A DNA stretch of 21,464 nucleotides from a virus (IMGVR_UViG_3300017952_001955:1-21464), one strand, 5' to 3'. Numbered from the stretch's first letter, positions 261-21,149 are shown. Numbers and translations: made by a program. Notes: generated by a model not told the origin, from the sequence alone.

Positions 261-3200
261 CAAGTGCTTGAGCACCACGACCCTGAACTGCACCAGAGTA
301 TTCAAATGTGATCAGAGAGTTGGAAGATTCGATCAGAGCGACTGTTCTGTTCTCTTCTTCACCTTCGATGATCAGTTCGTCACCAGCTTCGATCGGAGGA
401 ACGACTGTTGCCGCGATAACGTCAACGTCAGAACCGATGTAGGAGAAGGCAACGAAGGTCGAACCTGCGCGAGGAATCTCAGAGAAGATGATTCTAGAAC
501 CAACGATCTCGAAACCGATTCCTGGTTCCTGAATAACACCGTTCAACTGACAGATGATGTTGTTCTCAGGTCTGATCGTGTTGGACTGAACACCGTCAGT
601 CAGAGTCAGCGAGTAGAACACACCACCAAGTTTCAGGTTGAAGGAGTTACGCAGCGAGTCGAAGTCGAACGAGATGTCATCCAACTGACGCAGTTTGCCC
701 ATATAGACGCCGTGGAAGGTGGAACCAACTGCAGGTGCTTCAGTGAACTGGATATTGTCCGAGAACGCTGTGAAAGCGTAGTCTGCACCAGGAGGTTGGA
801 GGATACCGTTCACGAAGATCATCATATGACCTGCGGGATCGGGGAAGTATGCAGTGCCGTTATCCTGAGTTAGTTTGAAGTTCGTCTGAACACCGTCGAA
901 ACCCCTGAAGTAACGAGCAACGCGACCACGGAGGAATCTTGCTTGCGAACAGGCACCACGGAATCCATTGTCACCAATGATCTGAGCATTCTTCTGGAAT
1001 GTACCCTGGGTGCCTTCCAAATGCAGAACTGCGCGAGTACCAAACTGGGAGATCTTAGCGATCTTACCGTATGCCGATGTGGGCGTAATTGTAACAGCAC
1101 CAACCTGTGTATATACGGACGGGAACAGGGATCCAGGAGGAATCTTCGCGAGCGTATAGTTGGAATTGGATGCAATATCGCTAATGGTTACACCCTCAGG
1201 TGCTCCAGTCTCGTTCGCGATATAAACGTAGTTGTTATCCGTATCCAATTCGGTAACAGTTGCTGTCCAACCGATCTGAATACCACCAGAGAGGATCTGG
1301 AGAGTATCACCCACGAGGAATGTGTCACTTACACCCGTATCAGTAATCAGAGAACCATAAGTCAATCTTGTGATGTCTCTACCGTGTACATACTCACCGA
1401 AATCTGGGAGGGTAACAAACGATTCAATTTCAATGATTTGATCGGTAACAGAACCGTAGATGACATCACCAGGTGCCCACTCACCCGTAACAGTTTCAAT
1501 ATCATATGTGATACGACCGTTTTGGTTGTCGATCAAAGCACCATTGTTATTTCTAACGATTAGTGCATTTGCCTTAGAGGGGGTATTAAAGGAGAAGATC
1601 TTGTCCGTCGCGATGAATTCGCCCTGGCGGAAGTTAACCAAGATTCTGTCGTGCTCAGAAACATAGTCTGCAGTTGCACCAGAGGTTGTACCCTCAAGCG
1701 TACCTGAGAATGTGCCTTGGGGAGACAGGATCTTGACATAAGTTGCATTATCGGTTGCAAGGATGACACCTGTATTTGCGGTAGCACCTTGTACAACGAT
1801 TGCCTCGCCGTTCGCGAAGGAAGCACCACCGACATTGGCAGCACTAAAGTTATTCAGTTCAAGGTACTTGACCTGGTACATAATGTCTGCCAGGTTATCT
1901 TGTACGCGAACAATTTCAGCGTAAGATCCAGTGGTAACACCGTAGATAACGTCTGCGAGGTTAAATCCACCATTAATAGGTGTAGGAACGTCGCGATCAC
2001 CATATGTGGTAGTTACACGCTCAATACCAGTGTCTCTGAAGACTTCTAGGGTATGAATCTGACCAACTACACCTGGGGTAATGGTGAGTGCTTCACCGTC
2101 AATATATTCTGCCAAGTAGATCTTGGTGGAAGTAGTAGACGGGTGGATGTAGTAGAACTCACGATTCAACTCAGGAATTGCAGATCCGAGAACGACGTAC
2201 TTAACCTTGTCATATGCCTCAAACGGATGGGAGGTAACATCAATACCATTACCAGAGACTGCAACACCTGCGTCGAAGGTGTACTTAATGTACGCGGACG
2301 GATACTGAGAACGCTGTAGAGCAGTCAGAATCAGGTGGAACAGTTGATTGAGTTTATGAACAGAAGTTTCGGTTGCACGAAGCTCTCTATCGGTATATGT
2401 GGGTTGATTAGACCAGGTACCAGGGTTGGGAGCATTCTGGCGAATAACCGCACTCATATGATCACGCAGGCGTTGTGCGTGATAAACCAGGCGAGTTCTA
2501 AAGACTCCAGGGAATGCGATGAAGTTTGCTTCAGAGTCGAACCAGCTATTTGTAAGTTGAGTTACTCTTGCATTGCCATCGGTGACAAAATCATAGATGA
2601 CTGCCTTAATGATGGGATCTGCAAACTCAATGTTTCCTTGATATCCAGGATACTGGGACAATGTTTGCTCAAATGCTTCGTATCTGATGTACGTATCGTT
2701 ATACAGGAGAATGCGAGCAGTCTGATCATATTGTCTGGTACCCTTACCGAGAGTCTCAAGGAGGATATCGAAGAGAGTGTTGGAAGCAGAAAGAACGTTG
2801 TAGCAAGTACCTGCCGCGTAGACGGTATTGTTTTCTACAGGAACTGTTCTAGTAATGGTCGTGAGGTGACTACCATTACCTGCAGCAGCAGTATCGATAG
2901 TGTTAATCAGAATATCCCAGAGGGTAGTAATCGTAGAAGCTTGTGCTACGCAAGTTCCGCTGTCATCAGTTGCGTAAGTAACCGTGAGGTCACGCTCAAC
3001 GCCACGATCGCCAGTCATTGGCCATTCCAGAGGCAGAGTTCTGGTAATGCCGTCGAGATACCCTTGAGGATCGGCAGTGTTGTTGAACAAGTTGATAACG
3101 ATGTTCATCAGGGTATCAATCGCAGCAGCTTCGTTCACGCAAGCACCAGGGGTGATTGTCGTATCAATTTGCTGTGTACCTTCGGTTGTCGCGTTAACCA

Positions 3201-6200
3201 TAACAGTCTGACCACGCATTACCTGAGTAGCAATAATGCGTGCCTCACCGAAGATGTATCTGGTTTCATTCGACTGCGAAGTGACGTGATTGATAGCGTT
3301 CGCGTTAGTGATATAGAACTCGGTTGCGTACCAAACTTTGTTGTTACCACCGTGTCTCAGATTGAAGCACATTGCCTCAAGCACGTCAATAACGTCATCA
3401 ACACAGTTCTGATAACCACCAGGGATGGACAAGGAGGGGAAGTTGATCAATCCACGTCCAACTGCAGTTGTAGCAATGAATCTGAGATTGTTCAGGATTT
3501 CATTAGATGCATCATAGAAACCATCGTCGTTTGCGTTCTCAAAGTATGTGTCACGAGGAACGGGTTGACCCAGACCAGAAGTCGTAGCATCCTCATAGGG
3601 TACGAAACCAAGTCTGTTCTGCATCGCGAGGATTGCCATATCGCGTGCCATCTTGAAGGCATACATTGTCTCTTCAGACTGATTCGCGACGTGCTGAAGA
3701 CCCATATCTGTATTCAGATAGAGTGCTGCAGCATCATAGGTCTCACTGTTACCACCAAAACGAATGTCGTGAGCGATTGCCTCAAGGATGTCAACGATGT
3801 CATCTTCACAATGATCCTTACCGCCAGGTACCTTGAATCCGTTGGTTGTGAACGCTGACAACTTAGTGGTTATATCAACTGCTTCACCAGCGATTGCCCT
3901 TGCGTTACGCAGGATCATATTAGAAGCATCAATGTCTCTATTAGTACCTGTGTATGCCTTAGGATCAATAGTAATGGTAGTATCACGATATGCAGATTCA
4001 TCAGTCCACTGTGCTTGATAATAATCAGTTGTGTCTAGTGCAATATCGGTGGGGTTTTCATTTCTGCTGATCAGCAGGTTCTGAATTGCTTTCTCAACCA
4101 GACCCTTGGCAAACTCAACAGCATCAAGCATTGGCAGGAGTTCATCTTCGACATAAACGATATTCGTTTGATTGTCGAGATAGAAGTCAATGACTGCCTG
4201 AGTTTCAAAGTTGCCACCTGTTACCAAGTCACCTGCGATAGCAGGCAGAATATACTGTTTGAGGTCACGTACACACTTGGTTCTACCACCAGGAATGGTC
4301 AGTTTATTGACAGTGGAGAATCCAACCAAAATGTTGTACTTGTCCTCAATGTAGGAAACAGTTTCATCCGCGATAAAGTCACGGTTGAAGTAGATCAAGT
4401 CTGCTGCATCACGGAATCTGTGACCTGTAGGACCAATGATATCGAGCATATCATCGACCAGATCAGTAACAAAATCTTGTACTGTTTGAGATGCAGGAGA
4501 TGCGAAGTAGTTGGGGACACGTACGCCAGTGGAATATGCGCCAGACAGATCTGCTTCGTCCAGAGTGATTACATCGACACAGAGTTTTGCAACTTCTCTC
4601 CAGACAAAGATTGACTGAAGTTGCTCACCACCAATGTGCTTCAGAGCACCAGATCCTTCCAGATATGCACGACCAACAACGGTGGTTTCATAGTTACCAC
4701 CATTGATCATATCTTCAATGATTGCAGGGAGGATATACGACTTAGTATCGCGAAGGCAGATATTTTCGCCAGCATAACCACCAGCACCGTCACCTGGAAT
4801 GACAAAATCGGGATAACGATTTCTCAGGCGACCAACTGCTTCTTCAGCAATCCAGTTGATGTTCTTGCGAATGACTTCAGCACAATCTCTAAACTCCTGA
4901 CGACCCAGATCAACACCTTCAGTGGTGATTTCGGATCTCCAAAGTTCAACTTCATCCGCAGTAGCAGAAGAGATAGTATGAGCAACATATGTTGCGTAGA
5001 TTGCACCATCTTCAAGTGCGAAGGGTGCTTCACCCAGAAGTGCGAAAGATACACTCAGATCATTATCATTGAAGATGATGGGGGGAGTAAACGCAGAAGA
5101 GTAGCTGGAGGTTCCTTTTCTGACGATCAGGTTATCAATCCAACCACCGAATACCTCACCATTAGAGTATGCAGCACCAACTTTAATTTCTTTGTCTACA
5201 TTGTAGTTGTTAGTGTCTGTATAATCGCTACCGACTTGAGCACCATCAACAAAGAGTTTGGTAACATTGGAAGTGCGAGTAACAGCAACGTGATACCAGG
5301 TATTAGCAGTAGGAATTGCACCAGCAGCGGTGATAACGTCAACGTTACCAACACCGAATCTGAGAGATGTGCCACTCATAAAGAGTGAGACTTGAGTGTC
5401 GGTACCTGCACCATTTCTGAAATCAACGATACGCTGAGTTCCAGAAATACCAGAAGGACGGATCCACGCTTCTATAGTATAATCACCTTCACCAAAAGTG
5501 ACTCTATTGGACTCAGGGTAGGAAAGGTAAGAACCAGTACCAGAGAATCTCAGTGAACCAGAGTCAGTTTTATATGTGAGAGCATCCTGAGTTACGTTCG
5601 AGATGGTCAGTTTCGAGTTGGTGATGTACTCACCTGCTTGCAGAGTACCAGTAATTCCCTTGGAGTAGATCCACTTGTTACCAGCATTAGAACCAATAAC
5701 ATCGTAGGTAGCACCAGAGGTCATTGCCTTGATGACATCACCGAAAGCAAAGAATCCACCCGAAGACTTGTCTCTGTATGCGTGCTTGGTGCAACGCAGA
5801 GTCTCAGCATCTTCAAAAGCGTAGGGGGGTTCTACGCGAGGAATGTTGGTGATTGCCCACTGATAAGTGGTGGGATCAGCACCAGTGGGATCCTGCAGAG
5901 TATCTGTCAGGATCTTCATCAGACTGGTGATGGTATTGACCTGACTTACACAGCTATTTGTATAACCGTCGAGGGCAGTAGAGGGTTCTGTTCTGGTTAC
6001 ACCTGCAGTGAATGCTGCGAGGGTACCAGGAGATGCTGTAGTACCCAGAGCACTGATCAGGGTATTCATCAAGGTAGTGATTGCAGAAGCAACTTGCTGA
6101 CACGCAGGAGATGCAGTGTCTGCAGTAATTGTCAGATCATATACCTGATTCCAACTGTGAGAACCTGCCTTAACGATTGCATTGTTTCTCATCACGTCGA

Positions 6201-9200
6201 TTGCCATATCGCGTGCCTTAGTGAAGGCATTCACGGTATCGTCTTCATAACCAGCAACGTGTGCACCCAGGAGATACTTCTCAGTAGCATCCCAAATAAA
6301 GTCGTTACCACCGTGAGCAACGTTATATGCAAGTGCTTCAAGAACATCAACGATGTCTGAGAGGCAATTTACATCACCACCAGGAACAACCAGAGAAGGA
6401 TTCTGAGTCTTAGCGTAATGCAGTGCTTCGTGTGCAATGAACCACTTGTTAGCAAGGATAAGATCGCGTGCATCAGCGTGACTATTGTCAATTACACCAT
6501 ATTCTGCAGTAATCGTGTTATCGATATACTGAGTCAGAGTGGTGAAGTTTGCCGAGTGTGGTTGGTTGCGTACACACTTGATTGCAAGATCGCGTGCTTG
6601 CTCGAATGCATATACCGTTTGAGGGATTGCGCCATCCAAGTGATAGACGTTGTTGCCCTGAACATAGGTTGCTGCTGCATCCCACATCTCAGAGTTACCA
6701 TCATAGAGGATAGAATATGCAATGATGTTGATGATATCGATAATGTCATCCTGACAATCTCTATCACCGCCGATAGAATCTACTTGGAAAGCAGGGTAGT
6801 AATCCTTCATTGCTCCCACTGCCTCTTCTGCGATGAATCTTGCGTTCTTAGTCAGCAAGTTATTTGCATCAAAGGAGCGTGTATCATCAACAATCTTCAG
6901 AGAAGAGTTGTTGTAGTAGATTTTCTTGTTGCGAATCTTGTCACCAGCAGCAAATTGAGAACCAACAAGGTCGGTATAACGAATTTCCTGGTTTCTTACC
7001 TCCTCAAAGTCAAGGAAGTCCTGGTTATTGGTAGATTCTGCATCATACAATTCGACAGGTTTGATAACTGTCTCCGAAATATTGTCAAGAATGACGTTCG
7101 GATAGGTAATAGAAGGTACACGCTGGAATACTAGACCAAAGAACGTGGATGCAGGAGACAAATCAACGGTATCGATGATTTGTGCGCTTACAGGATCCTG
7201 GTATGGAGCAATGGAGGTAATTCTTGCAGCAATTTTGGAGCGTGCAGAGTAAATAATGTCGTTAAACTTCAGTTGGAAGTCACCAGTTTCATATTCTGCG
7301 GTACCAGAAGTACGAGAAACAAGCAATACGTTAGAAATAACACCATCTTCCAAGTTGCTACTTTCAGTAACTGCAAAATTACCGTTCAGATTGGTAATGG
7401 TTTCTCCCTGCTCATAGATTGTTTTGCTGTTTACAGGAGCAACAGCAGCCAAAAGACCGTCAAATCCAGTTGCAGAAGACAGAACATTGTCATTGATACC
7501 AAATGTTCCCTCAACATTAACTACATCGATGTAGTCTGTACCAGAATCAATCACAGTTGCAGTTGCTTCGGTCTGCAGAGAACGGACAATTTTACCTACA
7601 GTTGGGAAAATGCCACTTGTGCTTGCGAAGGTAAAGCGAGTGATGTTGATTTGAGCGTACTCAATAGTACGGAACTTGATTCTAGACGGTGCTTTGGGTG
7701 GCTCAGCAAACACAATGCTAGGACCAGCGGTCGTGAAAGAGGTGCCAGGCGATTGTGCAACACCATTAATCAGAATCAGCATCTGATCATCAGTTGCTGT
7801 AATCGACTCACCCTCAACAGTCAGAGGGAACTGGGTCTTGATGCCATTGAAATCGTTCTCAATGTTGTCCAGTTTCTTAACAATAGAGGTCAAAATTTCC
7901 TCAGAGTTGGTCAGACGCTTCTGTCTGAACAGAACTTCAGTATTGTTAAACTCTGTATAGATGGGTTGCGAGTTTGCAAACGATGTAATCTTATTAACAT
8001 CGGTGGCACTGAAGATGTTGACCTCTTTGATCAGGTCCGAAACAACCTTACGACCAGAGATATCCTTACCTGCGCTCAGTGAAAGTTCACCGAACATATT
8101 GAAACCAACGGGGTGGTTTGTTTCCAGGATGGACTTTCTCCATTCGTTAATCGGAGTCTGAGACTTGATAACGTAAGAGAAGTTCTGATAGAAGAAAGAG
8201 TCTTGAATCTTCTGGACAATTTCGGAAGGTTTACCCACGTCATCGATAAACTGACCAGTTGTGGTAGTCATCGAGTCAATATTCAAGGTACCACGAGCAA
8301 TCGAGAGGTTATCAATCAAACCAGATGCACGAGACACCTGACCAGTAACTCTCTCGCCCTCTACCCAAGTACCATTGTAGTTCTCAAGTTTCAGGATGCG
8401 AGGACCGATTTGCCAACCCTCATTATTGGAAACGTAACCTGTTGCAGTTGCAGTCTCAATGGTGCTGCCTTGATAAACAAGTTCACCCTTCAGGAAGCGA
8501 GAAGTTTCAACGATTGCTTCTGCTTGACCACCGAACACTTCGGTAAGAAGGATCTGACGACCATCACCTTGTGTCAGGAAAGAAATAAAGTTACCAGACT
8601 CAGCATCAACTTTTGTCAGAGCAATTCTCAGTTGGTCGGGTTCCAGGGAGTTGGCATTACCCGCGATTGCAAAGTAAGTAGTGTTTGCATTCAAGCTAAC
8701 CAGACCTGCGCTACTCGGTTTTGGCAGAACGCCAACAGTAGAACCAAGATCTTCTGCTCTCAACTGAATTTCTGCACCAGTGGTGATGCCGTGCGGGAAG
8801 TTAAACTGCAGGTAACCCAAGTCAAGGTTAACAACATAGTTAAATTCGGATTTCAGAGTAACAGACGGTTCGGAAGAGTAACCAGAACCAGGGTTCTTGA
8901 TGATAACTTCAGAAAGTCTATTGTTCTTGACGATTGCCTCTGCTTCAGCACCTGTACCGCCACCACCTTCGATCACAACTCTAGGAACAGAGGTATAACC
9001 AGAACCAGGATTAGTAACTTTAATTTCGGACAGAATAGCGGTATTAAACAGCTGAAGGTTTACTGGGAAAGTAATTTCGGGTCTCAGAGTGTAGTCGTGT
9101 GAATAACCGAAACCAAATTCGTTGTTCTTCAGTTTCTTAATCTTACCGATGCTTCTACCTTGCAGGAAGACGGATGCACCCGAACCTTCATCTGGAATCA

Positions 9201-12200: not shown

Positions 12201-15200
12201 TTGTTACCGCAGGTGTTTTATAGTCATCTGGGGTAAACTTCATATACAGAACGCCAACCTTATTGCCAGTGGCAATTTGAGTTGCTGTAGCAGTCAGGAA
12301 TCTGCTGCCATATTCGTCAATAGTAATCTTAGGTTCGGAGAATCTGAATGCAGTGTTGCCAAACTGTCTGCTCCAGGTTACTTCAATAGTTGCGGTATCG
12401 TAGTAAGTTTCACCCACGATGATGTTGCCAACACCAGTAGGATCACTAATACCAACAAACAGTGTGCTGTTATTGCCAATGTAATGAAGATCATTCAGTG
12501 TTTCATCACTACTTGTGGAACAGATCTTACGCTTTTCTTTGATTGTACCATCAAGATCCATCAAAGCAATCCACATATCGTTGGGATTGAGTGAGTTGGT
12601 ATCTGTGTAACCAGCGATATACAGTTGACCGTCATCATCCAGTGCAACACCACTCATATAATCACGACGGGTACCACCAGAGATACCAGCAATTTCTCTC
12701 TGCCACTGAATGACTGCAGTAGGATTGTTGAACCCATCAAATCCAGAGATGAACTTAGCAACTACCAGATCAGGGTTGTAGTTCGGGTTAGATGTATGGG
12801 GTTTTGTCTCACCAACAACATAGATTGAATGGGGAGAAGTGTTCTCAACGTAAATTCTAGTGAATACACAATCCTTATCTCCCGTTGCAGGTTGCAAAGG
12901 CAGCATTGTACGAGTCCACAGAAGACGACCGTCACTGTTGAACTTAGCAATCAGACCAGCAGAGTCTCCAGTAAGATCATCTGTCTGACCAACAACATAG
13001 AAAGTGCGATCTTCCGCAATAGCAACATCAGAGATCTTACAGATCCTATCAAAACCACTGCTATTTTCTTTCAGGACAGATAGTGCATATGCTGCTTTCT
13101 TGAATCTCTGGGGGTGAGATACTCTGATTTCTGGGGGATTGTCCTTATCATACTCAGATCCAGAGTTAATGATCTTAACTGTGTTAACAGCACCAGACTC
13201 TTCTCTGGTAATTGACAGGGCAAAGTCTTGACCAGATCCACTAACAACTTCGTAGGTGGGAGGAATATCTTCAGAATAACCGAGACCCTGTTGGGTAACA
13301 GTTACGCGCTCAACACCAGATACGACCTTGACACGGTATGTCTTGTTGGTTTGATCGATGATGGGAATACTGTCAACGATAATACCATCGCCTGCTCTGA
13401 GATCGTGCTCACCAGTTGTTGTAATACGACCATAAGGAATATCATCCTCAACAAAGGATGTGTATGCAGCAATGTCAATACCCTTAACCGAATTGACCTT
13501 TGCAGATGCACCATAACCACCAGTACCTTCATTGTCAAAGTACAGTTTATCGTTAACCTTATACGATACACCTGGATTCTCAACCACAAAACCACTAATT
13601 TGAGCATCCTCAAACTTAGTAGTGGTCTCAATTTCGATGTCAACTTGAGATCTGGTGGAGACACGAGGGTAGTAATCGAAGAGTTGCAGCACAGGTTCTT
13701 CGGAGATTTCCAGAAGAGTTTCAATTTCAGACTGCTGCAGAACACCATCACGGTTGATATCTTCAATCTCAAAGACAAAGGTATCACCAAATTCTGTTAC
13801 CAGTTGATCGGTATCAGCGTTGGGTTGACGATCAATGTCGATATCAACATCTTCATAAGGATCTCTATAACGGACAACACCCTGAGGAATGTTCGTCTGA
13901 ACAGCATCTTGATTGTAATTCCACTTATCAGGTGTGGAGTACAGTTGAGGACCAGCAATATAAGGGAATACTGGAAGACCTGCTTCAGATGCGTCAATAG
14001 AAACGAAATACGCATATACACCTTCGGGATAGTCGGGTGTCTTACAATATCTACCGTTATATTGGTCCAGATCACCCTGTTGGAAGACATACTCATAGTC
14101 TTCAATAAAGGAACCTGCAGGATAAGATGCCAGGACAGGACCATCAGCGCGAACAGGGTTCGGGTTTGTATCCTCATCATATAGAAGAACTGGTTTGATT
14201 CTGTAAGAAGAAGTGACCCTCTTAATACCAGAAGACTGGTCTGCGGCATCAATATAACCGTAAGGACCGTAGATTGGGTTACCATCAAATGCCCAACCAA
14301 TGATCGGGGAGTGTCTCAGACCAGATGAAAGTTCTTTCAACTGTCCTGTAGAAGCCTCACGGAATACATTGTCACCGAGAACATATCTCAGTTGCTTAGG
14401 ATCAGACAGGTGAGCATACTCGCCACCATACTGAGTGTTATATCCAGCAAAAACATATCCACGAGAAGGATCAAGGAGACCATCAAGTTCATTTTCCAGG
14501 TTACGAGTCCACTCAAATACATTTGCTTTGAATGTCGCAAGTTCGCCAATCGCTTCCAGGCGAATTGTAGTGGTTCCAGTGCTGTATCCAATACCACGGT
14601 TTTCTACGGTAACACCAAGAACTTTGCCCTTATCTTCACCAATGGTACCGATAATTGCTTTACCAACAGCACCATAACCATCGCCATTGATGACGACTCT
14701 CGGTGGAGATGTATATCCTCTACCAGATGCAATAATAGCGATAGAGACGATACGACCGTTGATAATAATCGGTTGTGCAACAGCACCCTCACCAGAATTC
14801 AATTTAATTTCAGGAGAAGATGTGTAACCAGAACCAGATGAAGTCAGAGCAATAGATTTGATCGGACCTCTAACTTCGGCAGTTGCTGTTGCGCCAGATC
14901 CCCCGCCACCAGAAATTGATACAGTAGGAGCAGAGGTGTACTGTTCACCAGGAGTTTCTACCAGGATCTTACTTACAGTACCATTCGTGATAACAGCAGT
15001 TGCTGTTGCACCGAAACCACCGCCACCAACAATAGAAACCAGGGGTGAAGATGTGTATCCAGTACCACCAGCAGTAACTTCAACGCTGAAGAGGGATCCA
15101 TTAACAGTTACATTTGCTTCGGCACCTGATCCTCCACCACCATTAATTTCAATAGCGGGTTTGTTTGCAGCGTCATAACCTTTACCAGAATTGGTAATAT

Positions 15201-18641: not shown

Positions 18642-20735
18642 TTAGAAGCAAGCGTCGAACTCGGGGAACTCGAACACTGTCGTCGGATAATCAATGATAT
18701 TTATCGAGGTTCCGTCGAAGTTAATTGGCGTAAAGTCGAACGGATCGAAGTTGGGGACTACGGTTCCATCGATTGTGTAGTCGATGGTAATAACCTGTGG
18801 ATTGAAGATCACAGGGTCTACTCCAGTGCCGATTGTGACCGCTCCAGAAGCGACTAGAACCGTAATCGGGATGCGTGAGGTACCATCTGGAGTGCTAGCA
18901 ACATTTACAGGTCCAAGACAAACTTCGCCACTCTTATAGTTGACTGTTCCGACACCTTTTTTGAGAATAACTTCTTTTTCATCCAATTTTGTGACCATAA
19001 TCAATTCACCACGTCCGTCATCTCGGACATTTACGGGAAGAAGTGCTGAAGTGTCACCATCAATAAATGTACTGGTGCTCAGAACTGAATTTGCAGTCAG
19101 TTGTTGTGATTGTACGGCAAGATCGAGCAGATTTTCCGTATATCCTGTCGAATAGAAGGTACCACTCTTAACAGAAGAGAATTTCGGGTCACAAGTACCA
19201 GCGCCTTCACCAGATCCAGTCGTTCCACCAGAAATATCACCAGGATTTACGATCTCATTGTCAAAATCGACACATTGAGTGAACGTTGACCCAAATGGGA
19301 ACCCTTCAATGTTCAAACCAAGGGTCATTGATGTCTGGTTACCAACAATAGCGTTGTCAGAAGAGTCAACCATCGTCATAAATGCCGATGTATCAATTCT
19401 TCCGTTAAATCTGTTGGCAGAACCTTGAGTATTGTACTGATCAATAGCGCCTAAGACCTTCGATGCCAGCTCATTGTTGGAAAGATTCGTAGATCTACCA
19501 TCAAAGAAGACGTAAGACTTGGGACGGATGTACATAGAGACAGGATCGATGATGACAGGTTCGATTGCTGCCATCGAATACTTCAGAAGATCCGCTTTGA
19601 TGCGCTTTTTGGTAGTTTCGTTCAGTGCAGAACCACTCTTGGTCTTAACTGCAATGAAAACCTTGCCGTAAATGGGAGGAGAAAGTCTTTCACCACCATA
19701 TGCAGTCACAGAACGTGCCTGAGGGTACACATATTTGGTAATGTACTCATAGTCAGTCTCAGTAACCGCTCTATTCTGCGCTGAGAATGCCCTAGGAGCG
19801 TTGAATTTGATGCTAACGATGTCTTCACCCTCTTCGCCGTCCTGAGAGGCGTCTACGGTCGCTATAGTGATCTGTGAGGAAGGGATAACACGGTTTAGGT
19901 TATCAATCGCACGACCAATAAAGGTAAACTTCTTACAACCGTTAGCAAGAGGACCGTCAGTACGTACATACTTGAGTCTGATGATCTCACCAGCAATCAA
20001 TTCTCTACCAATGATACCGTCACCAAAGATGATCTTATACCTCAGGTCATCAGTTTCTTCCAAGAAGTATCCACGAGTGGTACCATCAACACCTACAATG
20101 TCATTAATACGATTGTATGTGTCAATCTCCTCAGATTGAGCGTTAGGTGAAATAGAAACGTACAGAAGATCTGTATCAACATTGTCTACAGGAATCTCAT
20201 ACCCGCGCTTCTTAACGTCCTGCACGGTGTATGTGTAGTTCAGCAGGTTACCCTGATATGCAACAGTTTTGGGGAATGACGCAATACCTGTCTGTTGATC
20301 TACTGCGGTTGTAATTGCAACAGGGAGAGTAAACAGGAATGATTGACCGTCTACAGAAGAAACAAATACATCACCCTGAGGAAGGGTTACCGTAGCGGGA
20401 TATGCATTGCTACTACCCACCAAAGAAGTCTGCACAGAGAAGTTCAGACACGCCTTTGACGCTTTGATGGATCTTGGTGTATAATTAAGTTGCTTCGCAA
20501 TCTTAACAACGTTGTCTCTAATCGTTGCAGATTCTAAGAATGCTTCATTCATTGCCATATTGGCATTGAACGAAGCGTAGTAAGTGTTATATGACAGTAC
20601 GTCTAGCAGATAAGACGCAGCAGAACCATCAAAATCATAATCCGTAAACTCTTCACGAGTTCTTAGATAAGATCTGATAGACTCCTTAATCTCTGTAAAA
20701 TCCAGAGAGGTTAAATTGGAAGGAATTGCTGCCAT
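18642..20735 (-). CDS. 6: Baseplate wedge protein gp6 (Baseplate_J-like)
   Basis: This 697-residue protein is close in size to T4 gp6 (about 660). In T4, gp6 joins neighbouring wedges into a ring around the baseplate hub and takes part in the change of shape on infection. The N-terminal 100 residues show the gp6 pattern: DFTEIKESIRSYLR, DYDFDGSAASYLLDVLSYNT, then a run of helix ending in NYTPRS. The middle has the Baseplate_J signature: a GEIIRLKYVRTDG segment near residue 250, FNAPRAFSAQNRAVTETDY near 310, and GGERLSPPIYGKVFIAVK near 345. The part after about residue 480 is more variable and holds a flexible Gly/Thr/Ser stretch (GGTTGSGEGAGTC). The start lies 3 bases after the gp25 stop, with a weak AGAGAG-type site inside the end of gp25, so the pair is probably translationally coupled. 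Confidence 0.97.
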   Translation of the reverse strand: MAAIPSNLTSLDFTEIKESIRSYLRTREEFTDYDFDGSAASYLLDVLSYNTYYASFNANMAMNEAFLESATIRDNVVKIAKQLNYTPRSIKASKACLNFSVQTSLVGSSNAYPATVTLPQGDVFVSSVDGQSFLFTLPVAITTAVDQQTGIASFPKTVAYQGNLLNYTYTVQDVKKRGYEIPVDNVDTDLLYVSISPNAQSEEIDTYNRINDIVGVDGTTRGYFLEETDDLRYKIIFGDGIIGRELIAGEIIRLKYVRTDGPLANGCKKFTFIGRAIDNLNRVIPSSQITIATVDASQDGEEGEDIVSIKFNAPRAFSAQNRAVTETDYEYITKYVYPQARSVTAYGGERLSPPIYGKVFIAVKTKSGSALNETTKKRIKADLLKYSMAAIEPVIIDPVSMYIRPKSYVFFDGRSTNLSNNELASKVLGAIDQYNTQGSANRFNGRIDTSAFMTMVDSSDNAIVGNQTSMTLGLNIEGFPFGSTFTQCVDFDNEIVNPGDISGGTTGSGEGAGTCDPKFSSVKSGTFYSTGYTENLLDLAVQSQQLTANSVLSTSTFIDGDTSALLPVNVRDDGRGELIMVTKLDEKEVILKKGVGTVNYKSGEVCLGPVNVASTPDGTSRIPITVLVASGAVTIGTGVDPVIFNPQVITIDYTIDGTVVPNFDPFDFTPINFDGTSINIIDYPTTVFEFPEFDACF
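18698..18705 (-). promoter_or_regulatory. Candidate late promoter inside the end of gp6, upstream of the giant gene
   Basis: Minus-strand GATAAATA about 80 bases upstream of the giant gene's ATG, within the last 20 codons or so of gp6. It would allow the 18.6-kb gene to be transcribed separately from gp25-gp6. Chance occurrence in coding sequence cannot be excluded. Confidence 0.45.
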
Positions 20736-20738
20736 TTG

Positions 20739-21149
20739 TTAGGTTCTCTCTAAGAGGAAATCAACTGTTTGTATAAGAGTTTCACCAACGATAGTGTAAT
20801 CAAGTTCAACTTCAATAGTATTAGTTTCTTCACCCTCCTTGACCCGTACACTATTGAGTACGACTCTGGGTTCAAATCTTTTGACTACGTTGGAAATCTC
20901 TTCTCTGATGTCCTCAGCAAGAAATACATCAAATGGTTCAAAGAGCATTTCTCTCAAGCGAGAACCTTTACGGGGTTGGAAAGGTCTCTCATAAAATCCA
21001 GTGAGAACAAGGTTTCTCACAGACTGCTTAATAGCATTCTCATTTTTAACTACAGAAAAATCTTCAGTATTGGGGTTCGGTCTGAATCCAATACTGAAGT
21101 CTTTGAACGCTCTACTGAGCGTCCTCTCTGCTCTAAATTTGTATGCCAT
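20739..21149 (-). CDS. 25: Baseplate wedge protein gp25 (gp25-like lysozyme family fold)
   Basis: The 136-residue length matches T4 gp25 (132). gp25 belongs to the GPW/gp25 family and in T4 forms the inner core of the wedge together with gp6 and gp53. Typical features are visible: an N-terminal stretch with FSIGFRPNPNTEDFSVVKNE, the NAIKQSVRNLVLT segment, the family motif ERPFQPRKGSRLREMLFEP near residues 54-72, and a C-terminal beta part ending in a hydrophobic segment (TLIQTVDFLLERT). The start codon shares one base with the stop of the 61-residue gene (TAATG arrangement), and no strong ribosome binding site precedes it, which suggests translational coupling. gp6 follows after 3 bases. Confidence 0.95.
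   Translation of the reverse strand: MAYKFRAERTLSRAFKDFSIGFRPNPNTEDFSVVKNENAIKQSVRNLVLTGFYERPFQPRKGSRLREMLFEPFDVFLAEDIREEISNVVKRFEPRVVLNSVRVKEGEETNTIEVELDYTIVGETLIQTVDFLLERT

Follow-up and report, generated by a model that had tools for sequence, protein, structure and literature searches.

What is a helical repeat built around a PGG-Cys core doing, in seven copies, inside the tail protein of a marine virus? The question is raised by IMGVR_UViG_3300017952_001955:1-21464, a 21.5-kb virus record of IMG/VR whose whole length of 21,464 nucleotides is called the window here, and which encodes on its minus strand a giant open reading frame (ORF) holding the seven units. An earlier note on this DNA had taken the repeat for a possibly undescribed domain family. 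The units are instead divergent homologues of phycobiliproteins (the PF00502 family), the pigment-binding light-harvesting proteins of cyanophage hosts, and the sequences suggest that the virus particles may carry a light-absorbing pigment.

Seven units and their protein family

The seven units lie within window positions 2428-6879, on the minus strand and inside the giant ORF, whose residue numbers are given below:

Unit A: 6556..6879, minus strand, residues 3914-4021; CQDD, Cys at 6754-6756; matches PF00502 with E=5.4e-4 over 126 residues
Unit B: 6175..6480, minus strand, residues 4047-4148; CLSD, Cys at 6364-6366; from pairwise alignment and unit profile
Unit C: 4558..4890, minus strand, residues 4577-4687; full bilin motif CLRD, Cys at 4756-4758; matches PF00502 with E=2.4e-4
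Unit D: 4069..4416, minus strand, residues 4735-4850; full bilin motif CVRD, Cys at 4273-4275; from phycocyanin alpha matches and a structural model
Unit E: 3604..3936, minus strand, residues 4895-5005; CEDD, Cys at 3808-3810; from pairwise alignment and unit profile
Unit F: 3202..3516, minus strand, residues 5035-5139; CVDD, Cys at 3403-3405; from pairwise alignment and unit profile
Unit G: 2428..2727, minus strand, residues 5298-5397; degenerate, without the Cys/Asp motif; unit-profile E=1e-10

The seven-copy helical repeat that the earlier note had placed at about 2430-6870 is thus borne out. In pairwise alignments, all pairs among copies A-F exceed 200 shuffled controls by z = 11-39, with copy G weaker (z 1.5-9), and against a profile made from the units each copy scores an E-value between 1e-10 and 1e-27. 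The sequence marks by which it had defined the repeat, including the conserved Cys and Asp, are all found in the units, though the copies are unevenly spaced. Copy G, which it had called decayed, is so in lacking the Cys and Asp, yet it is preserved in that very state in relatives (loci L002, L005 and L007-L010).

Among Pfam families, PF00502 (Phycobilisome) is the only one that matches the units: on the giant ORF it scores 38.3 bits, its cut-off being 22.2, with E=1.7e-9; units A and C match it on their own at the E-values listed above, single units scoring a borderline 20-22 bits. It is matched by 14 of 39 units, other families appearing as stray single matches. Units C and D together matched 27 chains in the PDB, every one of them a phycobiliprotein, and in the phycocyanin alpha matches the Cys of unit D is aligned to the attachment Cys. 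When a profile of 39 units, taken from the window and 16 cyanophages, was compared with the PDB, the best 60 of 164 distinct chains were phycobiliproteins (best E 1.2e-7), the unit Cys falling on the chromophore Cys of KC-x-RD. With hhalign, the units matched 144 cyanobacterial CpcA/CpcB-type proteins with a probability of 96.8% (E 2.8e-10), and a phycobiliprotein profile at E 0.01 was passed by 24 of 126 non-redundant units and by none of 1260 shuffles. The C-D tandem and unit D, modelled with AlphaFold2 (pLDDT 84 and 83), are almost wholly helical, in agreement with the helical nature proposed earlier. In Foldseek the tandem model is matched predominantly by phycobiliproteins, with a probability of 1.00 and a TM by target of up to 0.72; for the unit D model they account for all of the top 50 matches.

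Some features speak against this identification. The Foldseek E-values are modest (0.03-0.4), the phage units have about 105 residues against about 160 in phycobiliproteins, and the alignment of the unit profile starts at about residue 36 of these proteins, their first ~35 residues having no sequence match. The unmatched N-terminal part is where the helices lie by which alpha and beta subunits pair; in the unit D model a helix precedes the unit. Nevertheless, because the Pfam, PDB-profile, hhalign and AlphaFold2/Foldseek results combine, the homology is hardly in doubt. The earlier note would have given up its undescribed domain family if a profile search matched a named domain, and PF00502 is such a match. 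The candidates of an unrelated or new fold and of a metal site were rejected on the strength of the profile, structure and PDB searches.

With the phycobiliproteins proper (CpcA/B, CpeA/B, ApcA/B) the units share the sequence profile, the helical fold, the KCxRD motif and a GG pair 18-19 residues after the Cys. They differ in standing in tandem within a virion protein of more than 6,000 residues, in another gene context, many of them without the Arg, and they give no sign of alpha-beta assembly. The bilin-binding globins of bacteria share with the units the superfamily, the CxRD motif (CxQD in photoglobins) and the company of bilin genes; those globins, however, adjoin reductase or heme oxygenase genes, whereas the units of the phages stand within a tail protein and have cpeT as their partner.

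The bilin-attachment motif and the cpeT gene

What was described as a PGG-x3-Cys-x-x-Asp core is, as judged from the alignments, the motif for bilin attachment, C-x-R-D (Cys84-Arg86-Asp87). The Cys and Asp, once thought a possible metal-related site, align with the bilin-attachment Cys84 and Asp87 of phycobiliproteins. In these proteins and in related bilin globins, CxRD is the bilin site, its Cys being bound to ring A and its Arg and Asp being in contact with the chromophore (PMC10151467). In the window, CxRD is found in units C and D and CxDD or CxSD in A, B, E and F, with neither in G. Among 598 unique phage units there are 461 with CxRD, 79 with CxDD, 26 with another CxxD and 31 without Cys, frequencies that are biased to CxRD by one seed search that used this motif; of the 461, 415 have a Lys directly before the Cys. 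The pattern searches used closer subsets, the set A1 being too diverse for them. An unbiased set is given by 53 C-D tandems gathered with seed patterns free of the motif, and here CxRD is invariant in both copies at an overall identity of about 50%. There is one Cys per unit, and neither a second Cys nor a His is conserved.

The gene for the T-type lyase CpeT accompanies the units. It lies directly upstream of the unit-bearing tail gene in S-PM2, S-CAM1, S-CAM3, S-CAM4, S-RIM44 and ACG-2014i, and in 82 environmental and isolate loci it shares the strand of the unit-bearing ORF and stands 14 bp to 3.6 kb upstream of it; in 18 S-PM2-type loci there is no upstream cpeT, and the inspected examples of these appear to be other tail loci. 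Genome-wide, a search at E 0.001 turned up the CpeT family in 15 of the 16 unit-bearing records; the sixteenth, S-SSM6b, has a weak 155-residue match over the cut-off once its pieces are joined. The CpeT of S-PM2 matches the lyase CpcT (PDB 4o4o) with E=3e-20. Cluster C phages (S-CREM2) have an S-type lyase in its place (PMC10665884).

Co-occurrence was scored in 23 T4-like phages, namely 22 cyanophages, with S-RIM44 counted once, and the pelagiphage HTVC008M. All 19 unit-bearing cyanophages have cpeT, and it is absent from all four unit-free phages (P-SSM2, S-SM2, S-SSM7 and HTVC008M), a match expected by chance about once in 8,900 if the phages were independent; they are related, so that this figure is a guide only. 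Neither units nor cpeT were found in P-SSP7, Syn5, P-SS2, S-TIM5, Ma-LMM01 and T4. As a blind test, cyanophages stated to be without cpeT were picked from a published table, which lists P-SSM2, S-SM2, S-SSM7 and Syn1 without the gene (PMC3037559 Table 3). No units were found in P-SSM2, S-SM2 and S-SSM7, and four each in P-SSM7 and P-RSM4, which are listed with cpeT; P-SSM2 had been scored earlier, and the truly blind cases are S-SM2, S-SSM7, P-SSM7 and P-RSM4. Syn1 has units and also an annotated cpeT, located by tblastn at NC_015288 19938-20462, which leaves the table outdated for this phage.

From co-occurrence and gene adjacency it is probable that CpeT and the tail protein with the units are functionally linked. 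The CpeT of cyanophages is usually assumed to act on host phycoerythrin; the gene considered here is that same auxiliary metabolic gene, but its distribution tracks a virion protein with candidate acceptor sites. A link to PebS/PcyA in place of CpeT was considered and rejected, the reductase family being present in 5 of 16 unit-bearing phages and P-SSM2 having a reductase without units.

The tail gene and the spread of the units

Three genes of the window define the setting of the units:

20739..21149, minus strand: gp25-like baseplate wedge protein (PF04965 E=2.3e-14)
18642..20735, minus strand: gp6-like baseplate wedge protein (PF21379 E=5.4e-17; tblastn matches in 2338 T4-like phage records)
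1..18618, minus strand: giant tail/baseplate structural protein of 6206+ residues, its C-terminus past the window (from the ORF, PHROG 701 and gene order)

On the minus strand gp25 is followed by gp6 and then by a single ORF of at least 6206 residues that is open at the window edge, which is the gp25-gp6-gp7 order of the T4 baseplate wedge. The order gp25, gp6, giant gene recurs in S-SZBM1, S-WAM1, P-TIM40 and P-HM1, and in P-RSM6 and P-SSM4 the giant gene likewise follows gp6 or precedes gp8/gp9-type genes. The giant ORF has a strong profile match to PHROG 701, a virion structural protein, and a weak one to Baseplate_wedge PF23786 (E=0.008); the annotations of its counterparts in isolates read gp7, baseplate wedge initiator, structural protein or hypothetical protein. 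Because gene order, the place of the giant gene and these annotations are common to isolates, the window is a fragment of a T4-like marine cyanophage and the giant ORF is a tail/baseplate gene in the gp7 position. It shares the gene order and the profile match with the gp7-position wedge protein (PHROG 701 and relatives), whereas records of that type are named virion structural protein, gp7 or hypothetical protein, and the examined annotations make no mention of phycobiliprotein domains. The remark that no named phage tail domain has this pattern still holds.

The units are unevenly spaced: B and C are kept apart by a LamG/ConA-like domain and by another helical repeat, a small one, of which further copies lie between F and G. 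The lectin domain occupies 5128-5541 on the minus strand (PF13385 E=8e-19), and a second stretch of similar appearance is seen near ORF residue 2440. The small repeat, C-x3-V/A-x3-I-x-T-L-M-x-I-L, has about five copies adjoining the units, each with its own Cys, at 5776-6111 and 2635-2961 (minus strand) and at ORF residue 5162. Elsewhere the giant ORF contains a YHYH domain (PF14240, E=2.4e-30; 13993-14439, minus strand) and a Gly-rich beta motif, GxGY[TS]...GGGG-GA-A-A, repeated at residues 408-1299 and 3109-3244.

Searches by tblastn with the units gave 342 and 357 matching records among 50,697 phage records. The unit-bearing records are named Synechococcus, Prochlorococcus or Cyanophage, together with one marine single-cell virus, and no units were found in the approximately 1,880 T4-like records of other hosts among the 2338 matches of the window's gp6. 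One pattern scan of cellular genomes, reaching close relatives only, found no relatives of the units. In S-PM2 the units, with 13 matches in all, are divided between two separate genes, at 46.0-48.4 kb and at 156.7-160.7 kb, and P-HM1 and S-RIM44 seemingly have two such genes each. S-PM2-type loci (for example L020, L019 and L018) carry tandem half-units of about 37 residues, which consist of the first half only, end in PGD and lack the Cys part; they make up 264 of 1035 profile matches.

A proposed pigmented tail and its alternatives

The reading that is on balance favoured proposes that phycobiliprotein-family domains were recruited into the gp7-position tail/baseplate protein and that they are probably bilin-bearing in the CxRD copies, CpeT being the loading enzyme. 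The bilin would come from the host or, in some phages, from phage Ho1, PebS or PcyA, and during late assembly CpeT would attach it to the Cys of those copies that have CxRD, in the window C and D, so that the finished tail would contain covalent bilin. That at least these copies bear bilin covalently is judged somewhat likely. The CxDD, CxSD and Cys-less copies may be structural, or may hold bilin in another way. A pigmented tail would stabilise or respond to light, and in its most attractive version would aid light-dependent adsorption.

For P-HM2, model fits infer adsorption in the light and effectively none in the dark, with no such difference in P-SSP7 (PMC7112961), and light-dependent adsorption is reported for several marine cyanomyoviruses (PMC2984593). 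P-HM2 has the unit-bearing gene of P-HM1 (80% DNA identity), and P-SSP7 lacks units. P-SSM2, which has no units, reportedly adsorbs in the dark, and this would fit. A role of the units in light-dependent adsorption is speculative and rather unlikely, and the same low expectation applies to the full scheme, in which a covalently pigmented phycobilin tail, loaded by CpeT, makes the virion light-responsive, for example by gating adsorption, in many marine T4-like cyanophages.

Several observations weigh against a pigmented tail. Of the copies in the window, four out of seven have no Arg and one has no Cys; the units of Syn9, P-SSM7 and P-RSM4 have CEDD or CKTD and no CxRD; and P-SSM4, the main counter-example, has three units, all without Cys, yet keeps cpeT and pcyA. 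The cpeT calls are weak in S-SSM6b, P-SSM7 and ACG-2014f, the correlation of units with cpeT is confounded by phylogeny, and pebS does not follow the units, P-SSM2 having pebS and neither units nor cpeT. T-type lyases are reported to serve the beta-Cys153 site and not the Cys84 site (PMC10452541), and the link to light and adsorption involves two or three phages.

It may instead be that the phage reused a phycobiliprotein-type globin without chromophore, as a stable helical module for building the tail, its Cys and Asp serving folding or packing, and that CpeT has its target elsewhere, in host phycoerythrin, or assists folding. This is the main rival, plausible but less likely than not. It agrees with the persistence of copies in which Arg or Cys is missing (copy G, the CxDD units and every unit of P-SSM4), with the site known for T-type lyases and with the lack of standard phycobilisomes in Prochlorococcus hosts (PMC2984593). 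However, Lys, Cys, Arg and Asp are kept as a set in most of the 598 units and CxRD is invariant in the 53 tandems, a set for which a bare helical spacer has no need, and cpeT tracks the units and not the phage family as such. The confinement of the units to cyanophages has also allowed the idea that they mimic phycobiliprotein subunits so as to dock on linkers, lyases or phycobilisome parts of the host, either in assembly or once the phage has entered. This is quite improbable, since they also occur in phages of Prochlorococcus, a host without phycobilisomes, sit inside a giant virion structural protein and have no sequence match over the presumed subunit-pairing part. A site for a metal or a disulfide, in a helical repeat of no related family and along the lines of the earlier note, would explain one conserved Cys and Asp per unit, but every profile and structure search yields phycobiliproteins and the single Cys is accompanied by no conserved His or second Cys, which makes it scarcely credible.

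The domain family is thus a known one, but its repeated placement in a tail protein with the attachment site kept appears undescribed in open-access papers and in the examined annotations; the search of the open-access literature, with subscription papers and preprints outside its scope, found no report of phycobiliprotein domains in a phage tail. It would become categorically new only if bilin were found in virions, and no other virion is, to our knowledge, known to contain a pigmented bilin protein. The role of phage pcyA and pebS has been called a mystery and that of cpeT unresolved (PMC3037559). A virion protein with candidate bilin-acceptor domains, co-distributed with cpeT, offers a direct and testable answer for CpeT, and the units are a physical candidate for what lies behind the light-dependent adsorption of some cyanophages. 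If the pigmented tail is true, these viruses would have a photoreceptive particle, and the phage bilin pathway its missing acceptor.

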